Position numbers and translations under genes: made by a program
The notes under the pieces: generated by a model
Database searches by the model: none
What the model was told of the DNA's origin: nothing
What the model saw: the letters and a program-made list of their open reading frames with translations, nothing else
Shown here: positions 3,072 to 22,744 of the stretch, piece by piece
Numbering within the stretch: the stretch's first letter is position 1
Layout of the letters: each line of letters starts with the position of its first letter
IMG/VR virus record: IMGVR_UViG_3300044625_000400
Span: 1 to 28,498 of that record
Reading direction: 5' to 3' (one strand)
DNA from: a virus
Length of the DNA: 28,498 bases

Positions 3072-6000
3072 TCTGTTCCTATTTGCGTGAGTATCACTTG
3101 TGCTGTCATGTAAATTTGAGGAGTGGGATAAGACGCAGCTCCAGTGTTCTTTACTTCTAGGTCAAGTATTGCATTGTTCACAGCGTTGGTATTCCATCCT
3201 AGCTCAAAAGTTCCCAAATTGGTATCTATATCTATGATAACATTGTGCGGATTGTCTCCTGCTGCTATGCCTCCTTTATTGTACGCAAAGCTGTATGTAC
3301 GAATACTGTAGTAGTCTGTTGGCTCTAGTCCTGATCCTAGTACACTTGTCAAAGTAGTACAAGTAAGTACTACCTCTGCAGTGTAGATAGCATTCTCTAA
3401 AGTCAAGAATGAGCCTACTACAGTAGTCATAGCTGCTGATGTGAATACATCTTTAGCATGCCATACCATTTGACCACTTGCTGATCTATTGACTAGAACT
3501 CCATCACTACCTCCACCATACCACACTCCCTTATTCTGTACAAGCAAGTCCTCTCCCCCTACTATGCTATTCTTTGCAGCTCCAGTCACAGTCAAGCTTT
3601 TACCAATTACGATAGTTCCGGTAGCTGATGGATCTTTCTTTCCACCAACATTTGTGAACTGATTGAGAAAGCTAGAGGTAACTCCTAAAGTGGGAGAGAT
3701 AATAGGATCTTTGATTCCTCCCTGATTCTGACTTTTGTAGCATATAGAGCCATCCCAATAGTATCCTATCTGCTCACAGCACACTTGACTACCTCCATTG
3801 AGCCACTGCACTGAGCCATCTTTCTCAATAGCTATGGCAGTATCTACGCATAGATTTGGTAAGTCTACTTGACTAAGTTTCTTAATCAATGTCACAGATG
3901 TACTTTGATTCATCCCCATATTGTACCCATCCACTGACAATACTCGCCAGTAGCTGTTGAATAAGAATACACTGTCATTGAAGTTCAAGTTCAAAATGTC
4001 GGTGACATCAAGATTAAACTGAGCAGTGAGTACTTTGCTCTCTTGACTATACAGCTCTTGTAAGTAGTTGTTGTAATACTTGAAATACATAGTATTTACC
4101 GGAGCTGATGTGATAGGATGGAGAGGTATCTCCTGAGCAAAGTTCAAGTCATTTGTTGATAGGTCTACATAGACATGATCATAGTGACCTATAAAAGGGA
4201 CATACAATAAGCTACCATAAGCACTGATACTTCCACCAATAGGCCTGAGTCCCAAAGTGTCTAAAGGATCAAAAGAAAAGTAGAATAATCTAGCATCGGG
4301 ATATACCCACTTGTACTCATCATCTACGAATTTGGGAAAGTAAAAATCTATGTTACTTGCGTTGGGGAACATCTGATTAGGAGTAGTGCTTGCTATTACT
4401 TCTACTTTATTTTCTCCCACTGTGAAATCACTAGCAGTATCATATAAGTTAAGTGATCCAAATACTCTGCCGACTGACTTATATGCTTGACTTGCTACAT
4501 CTGCACCCTCGCTAAATGTAAAATTCTGCTGTCTTGTCTGATAGTCTGATGAGGGTACTATTGTCATTTCACCCATCTCATCTATCTTAGTAGTCCAGTC
4601 TATTGTACCCCCACCTCCTAGGTACTCATTCATGGTCATGATGTCAATCACTCCATAGTTGCTATAGTTTGGGATGGCTACTGCGTTGGTCAGTTTCATG
4701 ATGTCGCGTAAGAAATCAAGTAGCTGATAGTTTTCAGGTGCCATGTCAGCTAAGCTGATAGCATTGGATAAGGTTAGATTGTACTTCTGCAATGTCCAGT
4801 TATTGACTTGAGCAATAATGTCTATCGTGCCTCCTGCTGTTGGATCACCAACAGATGCGAATGCCACCTCTACATAGTCCCCAGCATTAAAGAATACAGC
4901 AGTGTCCTCATTCACTGCAGCATTATTGATGAACACTGGTACTACTATCTCATTGCTTGTAATGACTGGAGCTTGTGCTGTATAGCTTGCTATATCTACA
5001 TCAAGAAAGGGAGATTCAAATTGAGGATATACACCACCTCCTAATATTGAGTTGAATGCTGAGTAAAAGTCTGTACCATTCACTAAGAAACCTGGCACAA
5101 TAGGAAAGGCAGGGCTAGTAGGTGTACCAGCTACATCACCCCTGATAGTGCCAGTGATCTTGAACTGATAGTACCCATCATCCGGTATGACATAACGGTT
5201 ATTCAGTGTATCAAAATTGCTGCCTATATCTATGACATCATTGAAAGCTATTCCAGTGATGGCTGTGTATAGATTGCCAGTAAGTACTGCAAAAGACAAA
5301 GTATCATCAGTGAAGTTAGTTCCTTTCCACTCAATAGCTGCAGCATTGTCTTTATATTTTAGAGTGCCATCCTTACCAATAAATGGCATGCACATCTTGT
5401 CTAGCTCAGCTTGTACATCTGTGCTTAACTCTATCTTTCTTTTATTACCATTCGCTAAGTATGCATTGATTCTGTCAATGAGATAAGTTCCTTTGAGACA
5501 TGGAGTGAGGTCAGTGACATCTATCCTATTTGAATTGCTCACACTTGTATAGTCGGCATTGACAAATGTGCCTGCATAGTTGGATGGGAATGTGATAAAT
5601 TGCTGACCTCTGTCTATTAAGGTCCACATCAGCTTATGATCACTGTAGTCATTGCCTCCAACCGTACCACCATCATTGACTAACCATACATTGTCATAGG
5701 ACATCTGATGCTCAGCATCGGTATAGTCTAGCACAGTGAAATCAAGATCTTTAAGATTAGTCCCAATATCTACTGAGTCACCATAAAAGACTATTGAAAA
5801 ATCAGCCATCTTACCATTCTTGATAAATGACTTTTTGAACTGTACAAAACCTTCTGAGATTGGTATAGTATCCACAGTCAGAACTGCTTTGAACTTTCTC
5901 CGGATATCGTTTCTATGAACTATATTGAAGTCACTCTGCAAGCCAAATAGGTCACAGTTGTTTTGAGTAGCTGGTATCCTAAACTCTTGACTATAAACAT

Positions 6001-17243: not shown

Positions 17244-17955
17244 GCAGGCACTGATCAAGGCACAGCAATCAGTTAGAATCAATGCTATCACTGCCTCACA
17301 ATTCAAGATGAGCATGGTGAAGCCTATCACAATATCCGGTATCAAGCAGCTTCCATCACAAGAGGAGTTCACTATCCTATCTCAGCTCATAGTCGAGAAG
17401 TATGGCAACATCACACTGGGTGAGCTGCAGCTAGCTTTTGATATGAATGCACTAGGCACTGAGTGGAATAGGATTGAACACTACAATATGTTCTCAGTCC
17501 AGTTTGTTAGTGATGTCTTGCGTCAGTATATTGAATACAGCAGAAAGGCAATGCAAGATATTAGCAAGAAAGAGGAAAGGAAGCAGATGAAAGTGGAAGA
17601 GAGAGTGAATATACAAGCACTGCACGACATGCTGATGGCTGATAAGCAAGATGAGAACTTTGAAAAGAAACTGAGATACACTGCACCCCTGATCATGCAG
17701 TCACTAATCAAGAGAGGATATTTTAAAGATGATTATATCTCTGATGAGTGGCTCAATGAAGTGAGGTACCAGGTGAAAGGAAATCTGTACAAGATAGTAG
17801 GTGAGTGGGATAGATCAAAGTACAACAGAGGAGAGTGGAAAGCAGTACTAGACAATGAACAGCTGAGCCAAATCAAGTGCGAGGTGTACAAGCATATCAT
17901 AAAGAATGAAGAGCTATTCACTACTATCATGAACAATATCACTGCAGACCTATGA
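17179..17955 (+). CDS. Conserved Bacteroidota phage protein, probably replication
   Basis: 258 residues from the ATG at 17179, which overlaps the previous gene by 65 bases; no later start preserves the conserved part. The segment QLPSQEEFTILSQLIVEKYG then NITLGELQLAFDMNALGTEW and EHYNMFSVQFVSDVLRQYIE is familiar from many Bacteroidota phages, always in the replication region. A charged coiled region (KKEERKQMKVEERVNIQ) follows, then a helical C-terminal domain. The function is not known; a helicase-loader or primosome role is plausible by position. The stop overlaps the HNH gene by ATGA. Confidence 0.55.
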   Translation: MTQTKSVELVGKTYSSGLTPSEQALIKAQQSVRINAITASQFKMSMVKPITISGIKQLPSQEEFTILSQLIVEKYGNITLGELQLAFDMNALGTEWNRIEHYNMFSVQFVSDVLRQYIEYSRKAMQDISKKEERKQMKVEERVNIQALHDMLMADKQDENFEKKLRYTAPLIMQSLIKRGYFKDDYISDEWLNEVRYQVKGNLYKIVGEWDRSKYNRGEWKAVLDNEQLSQIKCEVYKHIIKNEELFTTIMNNITADL

Positions 17956-18566
17956 GAAAGTACACTGATGAATTTATAGCTCAGATATTAGCTGACTATC
18001 CCCACACCAATACTGCTGAGATGGCTGTCAAGTATGGTATCAATGTCAATAAGATCAGCAGTATAGCACTCAATAGAGGTGTGAGAAAATCAGCTGAGTT
18101 CATGAAAGAGATGCTGGATAGAACAAGTAAGAATCTGCATGATAGTGGCATGAGTCACAGATTTAAGAAAGGTCATAGTGTGTGGAACAAGGGACAGTAC
18201 ATGAGAATGCATCCCCCTACTGAGTTCAAGAAAGGACAGAAACCACATAACTATAAACCAGTAGGCAGTGAGAGAATTACTAAGGATGGATATCTTGAGA
18301 GGAAAGTAGCAGAGCCTCGCAAGTGGAGAGGAATACATCTACTCGTATGGGAGGAAGTCAATGGACCAGTACCACCTAGACACAAAGTAATTTTCATAGA
18401 CAATAATAAGATGAATGTGTCTATAAATAACTTACTTTTAATTACATTTGAAGAGGCAATGCGGAGGAATACAATCCACCGTTATCCCAAAGAAATCAAA
18501 GAAGCAATCAAAACAATATCAAAACTAAAAAAAACAATTAGGAATCATGGCAAGGAACAAAATTGA
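17952..18566 (+). CDS. HNH endonuclease with NUMOD-like repeats
   Basis: 204 residues. N-terminal helix-turn-helix (NTAEMAVKYGINVNKISSIA). The central basic repeats FKKGHSVWNKGQ and FKKGQKPHNYKPVGSERITK are like the GxxxxNKG repeats of phage HNH proteins. The HNH core is HLLVWEEVNGPVPPRHKVIF, IDNNKMNVSINNLLLITFEE, AMRRNTIH, with the first His at about residue 135. In place of the second conserved His the chain has HKVIF-IDNN, and the last Asn is present (MNVSINNL). It nicks or cuts DNA and may be a free-standing homing enzyme or a packaging aid. It overlaps the preceding stop by ATGA, so it is not a loose insertion. Confidence 0.7.
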   Translation: MRKYTDEFIAQILADYPHTNTAEMAVKYGINVNKISSIALNRGVRKSAEFMKEMLDRTSKNLHDSGMSHRFKKGHSVWNKGQYMRMHPPTEFKKGQKPHNYKPVGSERITKDGYLERKVAEPRKWRGIHLLVWEEVNGPVPPRHKVIFIDNNKMNVSINNLLLITFEEAMRRNTIHRYPKEIKEAIKTISKLKKTIRNHGKEQN

Positions 18567-18814: not shown

Positions 18815-19429
18815 ATGAGCGACAAAATAAAAAAAGAACTAATTAAAACAGACAACTATCTACTTGTTGTAGATGATTCAGAAATTAAAGTTGGAGATGT
18901 AATTACAGATAAGTATAATGTATGGACATGGAAAGATGATTCTTCTTTACTTGGTAGAAAAAAAGTAATTGCTCACCTACCACTTAACAACTCACCAATC
19001 ATTGAAGGAGTACCACTACTTCCACCACTTGAACAAGAAGATGATATTAACAAATTGGCTTATGAAAAATGGAAAAAATCAGATGAAAGGTCAGGTAATC
19101 CACCCTACATCTATAGGATTGGTTATAATGAAGGTTACAACAAAGCAAAGGAGAAGTACAAGTACACAGAGGAGGATATATTGAAAGCATGGAACGCTGC
19201 ATATATTGATGCACTTGCAATAGATGAAATAAATTACAAACCATTATTCTTTGATAATTTTATCCAATCTCTCCAACAACCATCAAGACCTACTCATTTT
19301 GAGTGTGAGACTATTACAATGAATAAAGGCTATACTGATGAATTAGATGTTCCTTATCAAGAAATTGAAGTACCTAAAACAACAACCAACTCTCAAGGTC
19401 AAGAAGTAGCTTGTGGTAAATACATTTAA
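18815..19429 (+). CDS. Unknown protein of a Flavobacteriia-phage type, AT-rich gene
   Basis: 204 residues. Typical phrases are DNYLLVVDDSEIKVGD and NPPYIYRIGYNEGYNKAKEK, YTEEDILKAWNAAYIDAL, and the end VPYQEIEVPKTTTNSQGQEV. Such proteins are scattered in Flavobacteriia phages with variable middles; no function is known. The DNA is visibly more AT-rich than the genes on either side, with TTA, AAA and AAT codons dominating. TATCTTTG at 18803-18810, a -7-like box, lies four bases before the ATG, so this gene may have its own promoter with an almost leaderless transcript. It opens a set of accessory genes (18815-20046). Confidence 0.5.
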   Translation: MSDKIKKELIKTDNYLLVVDDSEIKVGDVITDKYNVWTWKDDSSLLGRKKVIAHLPLNNSPIIEGVPLLPPLEQEDDINKLAYEKWKKSDERSGNPPYIYRIGYNEGYNKAKEKYKYTEEDILKAWNAAYIDALAIDEINYKPLFFDNFIQSLQQPSRPTHFECETITMNKGYTDELDVPYQEIEVPKTTTNSQGQEVACGKYI

Positions 19430-19433
19430 AACT

Positions 19434-19805
19434 ATGAAAAAAACAATTACACTTGATGGAGTTGACTATGAGTTAACTCCCATTAAAAAACAAGAATCAT
19501 TGATTCTTAAACAGCAATTTAACTTAGAAATTCACCCTGATGAATTGGGTAAAATGACTTGGGATGAAGCGGTTGAAGCAGTTAAACAATTAGGTGATGG
19601 ATGGAGATTACCAACCTTACTTGAATTACATTTAATTTACAACAGTGAATTAAAAGACAAATTCAAAATTGATGATTACTACTGGTCCTCGTCGGAGGGC
19701 AGTTCCAGCTACGCATGGCTATTCTACTTCGGCAATGGCGCCACCCTCAACCTCAATAAGACCAACTACAGCTCTGTTAGGGCTGTTCGTGATTTAACTA
19801 TTTAA
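19434..19805 (+). CDS. C-type-lectin-fold (DUF1566-like) protein, probable DGR target
   Basis: 123 residues from the ATG at 19434. A first part (KKTITLDGVDYELTPIKK) leads to the DUF1566-like lectin domain: MTWDEAVEAVKQLGDGWRLP, TLLELHLIYNS, then DDYYWSSSEGSSSYAWLFYF and VRAVRDL at the end. WRLPT and YWSS ... AW ... VRAVRD are the fixed positions of this fold, in which variable residues form the binding face. The last 114 bases are much more GC-rich than the AT-rich first part and contain most of the gene's CpG. Variable positions carry NNC codons (see the next entry). There is no signal peptide. It could be a displayed ligand-binding protein of the virion or an intracellular binder; it lies far from the fibre genes. 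Confidence 0.7.
   Translation: MKKTITLDGVDYELTPIKKQESLILKQQFNLEIHPDELGKMTWDEAVEAVKQLGDGWRLPTLLELHLIYNSELKDKFKIDDYYWSSSEGSSSYAWLFYFGNGATLNLNKTNYSSVRAVRDLTI
19683..19796 (+). other. Probable DGR variable region (VR)
   Basis: From TGG at 19683 to TTA at 19796. Fixed codons (TGG, GAG, GCA TGG, TTC, AAT, AAG, GTT AGG GCT GTT CGT) alternate with codons GGC, TCC, AGC, TAC, TAC, GGC, GCC, CTC, CTC, ACC, TAC and AGC. All the latter have the form NNC, as expected when AAC codons of a template are mutated only at adenines. One site, CTA at 19719, does not fit. Five CpG lie in 19681-19740 in an otherwise CpG-poor genome. No template repeat or reverse transcriptase is in the window. Confidence 0.6.
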
Positions 19806-19816
19806 CTATTTAACTA
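19793..19816 (+). repeat. Three tandem copies of TTTAACTA at the end of the lectin gene
   Basis: Perfect octamers at 19793-19800, 19801-19808 and 19809-19816, covering the last codons and stop of the lectin gene. The repeat sits exactly where the variable region ends, so it may mark the edge of retrohoming or simply be slippage in an AT-rich tail. Confidence 0.75.
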
Positions 19817-19824
19817 TTAAAATT

Positions 19825-20046
19825 ATGAGTAAACAAACAGCAGTATATACTTTAGTTGAAATACTAATACAAGAATTTGGTTTTGATGCAGATGCAGCTA
19901 CTGATGTAATTCAACAAGCACTACAAATGGAACGAGAGCAAATGAAGTTAATATATGATGGATTATTACAAAATGTAGGAACATCTATAAAAGAATCAGA
20001 TTTGCCAACATTTGAACAATACTACAACGAAACATTTGAGAAATGA
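19825..20046 (+). CDS. Small helical protein ending in YYNETFEK
   Basis: 73 residues, starting MSKQTAVYTLVEILIQEFGF. The C-terminal phrase FEQYYNETFEK and the helical centre (ATDVIQQALQMEREQMKLIY) place it in the same small family as the gene at 20843 (YEEYYKETFGEQE). Several copies per genome are usual in Bacteroidota phages; function unknown. AT-rich, like the two genes before it. Its stop overlaps the next start by ATGA. Confidence 0.6.
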   Translation: MSKQTAVYTLVEILIQEFGFDADAATDVIQQALQMEREQMKLIYDGLLQNVGTSIKESDLPTFEQYYNETFEK

Positions 20047-20285
20047 AAACACCGGCACAGACTTTCAGAGATGAAGTAAATATCATCATTGATGCTAAGA
20101 TGAGCAGATCAATGAACACTTACAATAGTGGCTATGTACAAGCACTGCATGACCTTGAAGAGCTAATAGAAAAGCTCATACTAGATGAGAGAGACCACTT
20201 TGATCTCTGCTGTGAAATGGGACAGCTCTACCGCGAGTATGATCCCTCAGACTTAATGAACAAAAGATACAATCATGGGATATAG
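20043..20285 (+). CDS. Small helical protein, unknown
   Basis: 80 residues: MKTPAQTFRDEVNIIIDAKM, then NSGYVQALHDLEELIEKLIL, then DLCCEMGQLYREYDPSDLM. Helical and acidic, without membrane segments. Base composition returns here to that of the main genome. The start overlaps the previous stop by ATGA and the stop lies inside the next gene. No family recognised. Confidence 0.5.
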   Translation: MKTPAQTFRDEVNIIIDAKMSRSMNTYNSGYVQALHDLEELIEKLILDERDHFDLCCEMGQLYREYDPSDLMNKRYNHGI

Positions 20286-20622
20286 ATGCACACTTTGCTC
20301 AAATGATAGACCAGGATCTGAACTTCCTCAATGGTTTAAGGATAAGTATGACAAGTATTTTTTCTTTCCTGATGGATTGACTGTTACTACTAAGCAAGAG
20401 ATAAAATTCTATGATAATGACTTCTTTGAGGACTACCGAAAAGCTATAATTGAAAGTGGACATTTTGATAAATTTAGTGATCTATATGAAATATACCTAT
20501 CTGTACTGGGTGAAGATGGATCAATACATAGAGTAACAATTAACAAAAATGAAATCAAAATACATTTGTTGTCGGAATATCTAGAAACATCAGAAGTATT
20601 ATCATACATCGGAAATATATGA
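20275..20622 (+). CDS. Unknown protein with an N-terminal CxxC, AT-rich gene
   Basis: 115 residues. It begins MGYRCTLCSNDRPGSELPQW with one CxxC pair and no second pair, so a full zinc finger is not evident. The rest (KYFFFPDGLTVTTKQEIKFY, FEDYRKAIIESGHFDKFSDL) is rich in aromatic and acidic residues. It overlaps the previous gene by 11 bases and the next by ATGA. The DNA is AT-rich compared with its neighbours, suggesting it is a newer member of the operon. Confidence 0.5.
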   Translation: MGYRCTLCSNDRPGSELPQWFKDKYDKYFFFPDGLTVTTKQEIKFYDNDFFEDYRKAIIESGHFDKFSDLYEIYLSVLGEDGSIHRVTINKNEIKIHLLSEYLETSEVLSYIGNI

Positions 20623-21287: not shown

Positions 21288-21437
21288 ATGCCACTACCTA
21301 AAAAAAAACAAAATGAGTCTGATGAGCAATTCATTGGCAGATGCATGAATGATGAAGTCATGAACTCCGAGTTCACTGACTACCAGCAGAGGTATGCAGT
21401 GTGCAAAGCTCAGCTCATCATGAGCAAAGAAAAGTGA
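21288..21437 (+). CDS. Small protein with the FIGRCMND...QRYAVC motif
   Basis: 49 residues: MPLPKKKQNESDEQFIGRCM, NDEVMNSEFTDYQQRYAVCK, AQLIMSKEK. The phrase 'ESDEQFI.RCM.D......F.D..QR.AVC' is well known in phages, usually as the start of a portal or protease protein or as a stand-alone small protein. Here it stands alone and is coupled to the large terminase gene by ATGA. It may be a chaperone or connector for the packaging motor. A nine-A run at its fourth to seventh codons could be slippery. Confidence 0.7.
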   Translation: MPLPKKKQNESDEQFIGRCMNDEVMNSEFTDYQQRYAVCKAQLIMSKEK

Positions 21438-22744
21438 TGGAACTACTAGACAAGCAGAAAGAAGCACTGGTCTATCTACGCAATAACCATCCTGCCAACA
21501 TGATCTTGTATGGAGGTGCAGCAGGAGGAGGCAAGACAAGACTGGGCTGTATTTGGCAGATACAGAGGAGACTCAAGTATGCAGGCACTAAGTCTCTCAT
21601 TGGGAGGTCTAAGCTAGATACCCTAAAAAAGACTACCATAGCGTCATTCTTTGAGACTACTAGACTGATGGGACTACAGCCCCACACTCACTACAATTAC
21701 AACCAACAGAGCAATACTATCACATTCTACAATGATAGTCAGATAGTGCTTGCAGACTTAGCTTACAAGCCCTCAGATCCCCACTATCAAGACTTGGGAG
21801 GACTGGAGCTGACTGATGCATTCATAGATGAGGCAGCAGAGGTACATGAGAGAGCTATCACTACTGTGCTAAGTAGGATAAGATATAAGCTCAATGAGTA
21901 CAACCTGGTACCTAAGCTGCTCATGACATGCAACCCCTCTAAGGGATACCTATACAATGAGTTCTACCATCCCCATCGCGAGGGCAGATTGAGTCCTGAT
22001 AAAGCTTTCATCCAGTCTCTCAGTGCAGATAATTACATGCTACCCTCATCATACATGGGCATCCTTAACACATTGCCGGAAGTGGATAGGAAAAGACTAT
22101 TATTGGGAGACTGGGACTTTGATAGCAGTGATGATAGACTGTACTCTTATTCTGAGCTGCTCAGATGTTTCAGAGATAAGTCAGACAGTCTCACTGATTG
22201 CTACATCACAGCTGATATTGCGCGTTTGGGTAAGGATAGGACTGTCATTTGTGTATGGAACGGATTGCACCTGGAGAGGATGGATCTACATCTTCACAAG
22301 AGAGTCAATGAGATAGTGGACATCATCAAGAGACTGATGGAGGAGTATCAGGTAAAGCTCTCCAATGTTATCTGTGACGAGGATGGTATCGGGGGAGGTG
22401 CGGTAGATTATCTCCGTTGCCCAGGATTTGTCAATGGATCAAAAGCTTTCAGACCTAACTACAAGAATTTAAAAGCTGACTGCTACTTCAAGCTAGGTGA
22501 TATGATAGACAAGAATGAGATCACATTCAACAGCAAGTATAAAGATCAAATCACAAAGGAGCTAGAGCTAGTAAGGAGAGCCAATGTAGGCAGTGATGGT
22601 AAGCTGATGGTAACTGATAAGGAAACTATTGCAGCCAAAGCTGGAGGACTCTCCCCTGACATTGCAGATAGTATCATGATGCGTGCCTACTTTGAAGTCA
22701 ATAAGAGAGACGGTAGGTACTTTGTTGGAGGAGTAGCTGTCTAA
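21437..22744 (+). CDS. terL: Terminase large subunit (ATPase and nuclease)
   Basis: 435 residues from the ATG at 21437. Walker A is GGAAGGGKT at 26-34. Walker B is LTDAFIDEAAEV, and the coupling motif is KLLMTCNPSKG. The RNase-H-like nuclease has its three acidic stations: TADIARLGKDRTVICVWNG, VICDEDGIGGGAVDYL, and GLSPDIADSIMMRAYF. All three are present, so the enzyme should be active in cutting and pumping DNA into the prohead. It ends the rightward arm and its stop overlaps the stop of the opposing gene (22741-22744). The small subunit lies about 10 kb away on the other strand. Confidence 0.95.
   Translation: MELLDKQKEALVYLRNNHPANMILYGGAAGGGKTRLGCIWQIQRRLKYAGTKSLIGRSKLDTLKKTTIASFFETTRLMGLQPHTHYNYNQQSNTITFYNDSQIVLADLAYKPSDPHYQDLGGLELTDAFIDEAAEVHERAITTVLSRIRYKLNEYNLVPKLLMTCNPSKGYLYNEFYHPHREGRLSPDKAFIQSLSADNYMLPSSYMGILNTLPEVDRKRLLLGDWDFDSSDDRLYSYSELLRCFRDKSDSLTDCYITADIARLGKDRTVICVWNGLHLERMDLHLHKRVNEIVDIIKRLMEEYQVKLSNVICDEDGIGGGAVDYLRCPGFVNGSKAFRPNYKNLKADCYFKLGDMIDKNEITFNSKYKDQITKELELVRRANVGSDGKLMVTDKETIAAKAGGLSPDIADSIMMRAYFEVNKRDGRYFVGGVAV

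Follow-up and report, generated by a model that had tools for sequence, protein, structure and literature searches.

The last 35 codons of a small phage gene, from the TGG at 19683 of the window (the whole 28,498-base stretch analysed), are the variable region (VR) of a diversity-generating retroelement (DGR) and not the product of ordinary drift. The window is not a complete cis DGR, as a reverse transcriptase (RT) and a template near the VR are both absent, and the match between this patch and genes of a lake bacterium, while no virus contig has the machine, suggests that the viruses borrow a host mutator. We consider it somewhat probable that the gene is an RT-less phage target, a cassette moving between phages that is overwritten in trans by the DGR of the host. 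The broader proposal could as easily fail as hold: phages with a naked DGR target would use the host DGR in trans for the diversification of a small intracellular binder, which spreads as a one-gene cassette, the phage supplying the target and the host the mutator in a division of labour.

Table 1. Coordinates of the target gene, its variable region and adjoining features in the window
Feature	Position	Strand	Basis or remark
DGR target gene, 123 aa, Lcl_C domain	19434..19805	+	Pfam PF07603 E 4.6e-12
Variable region, skeleton WSSSE..S..AW.F.F..G.T....K.....VRAVR with variable NNC/NNT/NNA codons	19683..19790	+	Allele and template comparisons
GTTAGGGCTGTTCG, invariant VR 3' end, candidate IMH-like	19776..19789	+	No difference among five phage alleles and three cellular genes; role inferred from analogy to the BPP-1 IMH
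TAACTATT(TAACTATT)n tail spanning the stop codon	19795..19818	+	Common to several phage copies and partly to cell copy L019; without hairpin
Exchanged one-gene cassette, approximate	19430..19821	+	blastn: homology to L006 and L004 begins/ends near the gene's own edges
Upstream neighbour, function unassigned	18815..19429	+	L006 and L008 have parts of it close to their target genes, in changed order in L006
Downstream small gene (MSKQTAVYTLVEIL...)	19825..20046	+	'KQTAV' start as in the gene after the target in L003, L007, L008, L010

The VR differs from the rest of its gene in composition (GC 52.6% vs 30.5%, CpG observed/expected 0.77 vs 0.17, third-position GC 68% vs 24%) and in the way it varies. 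The window and the seven other IMG/VR contigs with the target gene represent five distinct phage alleles, among which variable columns at codon positions 1/2/3 number 12/2/26 in the gene body (63 columns each) and 19/17/4 in the VR (27 each; p 5e-7). Differences in the body are mainly at third positions and many are silent; summed over allele pairs, codon differences that change the amino acid stand to silent ones as 70:105 in the body and 150:5 in the VR. Twenty VR codons change their amino acid, and 16 of these 20 keep the third base, which is C in 13 of the 16. Adenine specificity was assessed against the template repeat (TR) of L047, an independent template from a related bacterium and not the cognate one: among the phage alleles 32 of 40 A columns are variable and 11 of 62 non-A columns (p 5e-10). 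A silent-site test restricted to unchanged amino acids was not significant by itself (p 0.18). The VR also lies at the 3' end of a gene from a DGR-diversified fold family (CLec-type, here Lcl_C), and the L047 target has the same domain.

An earlier note, made from the window's letters, had proposed a DGR variable region here, and the codon-position shift, the A-site test and the Lcl_C fold all agree with it. Its GC- and CpG-rich patch in an AT-rich, CpG-poor gene is borne out, its count of twelve changing NNC codons was close to the 13 found, and sister phages do differ mainly at NNC codons, as it had predicted. The start at 19683 stands, but the end at 19816 does not, since the skeleton stops at about 19790 and the further letters take in the stop codon and the AACTATTT repeat. 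At window position 19712 the base is C in the window and in the cell genes and T in the four other phage alleles, a split that suggests more than one template lineage.

Cellular genes with the same skeleton do exist. A GTDB-wide skeleton scan gave six matches, of which only L011 is real; L012-L015 were judged from their translations to be chance matches, and L016 looks like a separate Lcl_C-type gene. L011, in the freshwater Flavobacteriales MAG ZE-Jul18-93 (G008), encodes 347 aa that include Lcl_C, collagen repeats and an N-terminus resembling a signal sequence. This MAG holds three surface-type Lcl_C genes with the VR skeleton, L011 included, and an avd beside one of them (L019), where the VR gene is followed by a truncated bAvd homologue (PF22296 E 2.9e-15). 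No RT was detected in the MAG, even with the L047 RT as query at E up to 10, and together with the truncated avd this means that the cell may hold DGR remnants only. At L019:1695-2392 the avd is broken off where a PIN-type gene sits on the opposite strand, possibly a toxin-antitoxin insertion that broke the DGR.

A complete DGR is present in L047, from a genome (G038) of the same family as the MAG, in the order VR gene-avd-TR-RT (Lcl_C gene; bAvd, PF22296 E 4.6e-16; TR at 1047; RVT_1 E 1.1e-20). Its TR and VR differ by 12 mismatches in a 70-nt core, every one at a TR adenine, and its template, which contains the run TGG TCG TCG TCG GAG TAC AAC AAT AAC AAC GCG TGG AAC TTC AAC TTC AAC AAT GGC, encodes the phage skeleton codon by codon. 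The skeleton (TCC form, up to 3 mismatches) was not found in 113 other genomes of the bacterial family, and a looser form searched in 399 genomes of the order returned only these two genomes. The cognate template was not found anywhere searched, and L047 is a relative, not the donor. The same family also contains a second complete DGR with another skeleton (WWSSSASGSSTAW; L034, genome G116), with TR, VR and RT, and a Deltaproteobacteria MAG (L016, L017) has an Lcl_C-like, VR-looking sequence (DAWRVNFYFSLG...YVRAVRS) with an RT on another contig.

Between L011 and the phages there is agreement at all 59 phage-invariant VR columns, including 28/28 third positions, and where the amino acid is the same the codon is identical in 92 of 96 comparisons. 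The window VR matches L011 at 61 of 62 non-A template sites, compared with 54-58 for the sister phages and 49/62 for the L047 template, the only one found. The lone mismatch, 19698, falls on a first codon position that is variable, and the true template could well carry an A there. Only 55% of A-sites are alike in the window and L011, which is within the range of other pairs, and the window VR is thus not simply a copy of the L011 allele. Cell and phage gene bodies cannot be aligned as DNA, only short motifs being common and these mostly in other codons. Agreement in the VR despite such bodies requires either one template in common or recombination that repeatedly affected the VR alone, and retrohoming is the simplest process that would give both a shared VR and changed A-sites.

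No RT or template was found in the window or in the seven other phage records (eight fragments, about 109 kb together); in the window the template search covered both strands. Skeleton patterns that would fit a template as well were scanned against IMG/VR and returned VR genes only, a scan with a template-like string returned no match, and a search there for relatives of the L047 RT detected none. No avd-like gene was noticed among the window ORFs, by reading only and with no model run on all of them. The earlier note was right that the window lacks an RT, and its suggested search for a near copy as template yields nothing in the contig and a close relative, not the exact template, in the cellular DGR L047. 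It had allowed for a template and RT in another part of the phage genome or in the host, or for their loss; the cellular skeleton genes and the related complete DGR favour the host, with the exact template still not found.

The record, IMGVR_UViG_3300044625_000400, is a linear fragment and not a whole phage genome, and its terminase (21401-22744) is closest to that of Flavobacterium phage 11b (44%). The target gene has replication-type genes on one side and the terminase on the other, with small genes at 19825-20622, and its product is, as the earlier note had it, a small accessory protein and not a tail fibre. Phage relatives are 69-80% identical to it in amino acid sequence and cellular DGR targets 33-38% (aligned part); among named phages neither the protein nor the record's DNA has a relative. 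No signal peptide was seen at the N-terminus by eye, without a signal-peptide program, and on that reading alone the protein is apparently cytosolic. Structure prediction was too poor for use (pLDDT 45), a PDB sequence search gave one good match (HbP1 8q4e, E 5e-13), and in PADLOC the gene falls in no defence family. An HNH endonuclease gene (phrog_1891, E 2e-55) lies 0.9 kb 5' of the target gene (17952-18566) and could aid gene exchange.

Unrelated phages exchange the target gene as a single-gene cassette. Four contigs from four metagenomes (L007:587-1171, L008:9770-10354, L009:268-852, L010:9773-10355) have about 585 bp in common at 99-99.8% identity with an identical VR, a unit that reaches at most 12-14 bp 5' of the start codon and 42-44 bp beyond the stop. 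The flanks of L008 and L010 are unrelated phage DNA, and the window, L006 and L004 have little in common beyond the target gene itself; unrelated flanks and homology limited to the gene indicate that it moves alone. The identical VR in all four near-identical cassettes implies that rewriting is too slow to erase recent transfer. Phage gene bodies are 87-92% alike and A-sites only 40-65%, so VRs appear to have been rewritten after the phage-type body arose. The four-contig cassette ends slightly inside the next gene (MEKKQTAVEWL...); the conserved start of that gene is a possible recombination edge. In L003, positions 3380-3425 directly 5' of the target gene look like what is left of another VR gene at its 3' end (...CIRPVRDLII*).

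The 3' boundary of the phage VR is less easily reconciled with present activity. In BPP-1 a hairpin after the VR is required for efficient homing (PMC3240598), although low residual homing without it has been reported (PMC3240598, PMC12875486). L047 has a clear hairpin in this place; the phage sequences have no GC-rich hairpin directly after the VR, and fold there about as well as shuffled sequences or worse. The phage VRs lack the hairpin that BPP-1 needs, and their present activity is accordingly unproven.

Given the observed DGR mutation signature, the RT-less and template-less phage records, the skeleton in cells, the complete DGR in a related cell and the exchange of the cassette, a course of events may be proposed. 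A Bacteroidota host (of the family of MAG ZE-Jul18-93, or a close relative) would carry avd-TR-RT and its own surface targets, and phages of such hosts would encode a small, stripped-down Lcl_C protein in which VR skeleton and 3' end are those of the cellular targets. While the phage infects the cell or persists as a lysogen, mutagenised host cDNA would retrohome into the phage copy, rewriting positions that are adenine in the template, and the phage would gain a diversified binder without machinery of its own, the gene then passing between unrelated phages as a one-gene cassette. That the cell's RT wrote the VR in trans within the phage genome, and still does so, remains an inference without read data. 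It is likewise inferred that the protein has a ligand, which it probably binds inside the cell; a role in anti-defence or exclusion would suit a gene located with early accessory genes. The link between phage and host is indirect, through skeleton and terminase, and this counts against the proposal, as do the missing cognate template and hairpin, the lack of a detected RT in the MAG, the VR that is identical in four contigs and the fragmentary state of all phage records.

It might instead be supposed that the phages captured VRs already diversified, by ordinary homologous recombination with host targets or other phages, and that these have stayed frozen with no DGR acting on phage DNA. We hold this unlikely, though it has support in a gene that swaps among phages as a cassette, in the same VR found in four contexts, in the missing hairpin, and in the L003 remnant, which is what recombination would leave. 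Host and phage DNA are similar, however, only over the short VR and tail, which leaves little homology for ordinary recombination, and a single phage-type body with five or more VR versions would require many separate captures. The constancy of VR third positions while the body drifts argues the same way, with the caveat that the silent-site comparison alone is not significant.

Harder to credit is a DGR of the phage's own, in an unsequenced part of its genome and acting on a remote VR. All the phage records are fragments, the present one only 28.5 kb, and gut prophages with their own RT do have distal second VRs (PMC12629997); yet none of the eight records has an RT, IMG/VR holds no template of this skeleton and no detected relative of the L047 RT, and the skeleton occurs in cellular genes. 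Almost nothing remains of the possibility that this is an ordinary Lcl_C gene whose recombined, GC-rich end is under diversifying selection without any DGR. Lcl_C genes without DGRs do exist, but such a gene would not be expected to have the A-site pattern, NNC codons and constant third bases seen here, or avd and a complete DGR on its relatives, and the A-site test against the L047 template contradicts it.

If phage targets are served by a host mutator, a bacterium's diversification machine is usable by its viruses, and a non-tail, apparently cytosolic target points to diversified binders beyond receptor recognition. Surveys detect DGRs by their RT, and remote targets are missed according to Roux et al. 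(PMC8144416); host-served phage targets would be a class that such surveys do not see. In the open-access DGR literature, to which our search was confined, no description was found of an RT-less phage target served by a cellular DGR, or of one that has the skeleton of a cellular DGR lineage and moves alone between phages. Trans-acting DGRs within a single cell genome are already known (PMC10907252), as are distal VRs within one RT-bearing phage (PMC12629997).

The nearest system, the cellular DGR L047, has the same skeleton codon by codon, the same Lcl_C domain family and A-only changes, but its template lies in cis with an RT, a hairpin follows its VR, several skeleton codons differ synonymously, and its target belongs to a longer protein that begins beyond the stretch examined. 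The Legionella collagen-like adhesin Lcl (NCBIfam NF046116, Pfam Lcl_C) has the C-terminal domain family in common with the phage target and is, unlike it, a long surface adhesin. The DGRs of BPP-1, hankyphage and gut prophages with distal VRs (PMC3240598, PMC6199706, PMC12629997) are alike in a phage-borne VR and adenine mutagenesis; they differ in that they encode RT and template and have tail proteins as main targets, with a hairpin at the BPP-1 VR. The trans targets of Thiohalocapsa PB-PSB1 (PMC10907252) also have VRs without a local RT that match a distant template at non-A sites, but there template and target are in one cell genome, whereas the present target is phage-borne and its exact template has not been found.
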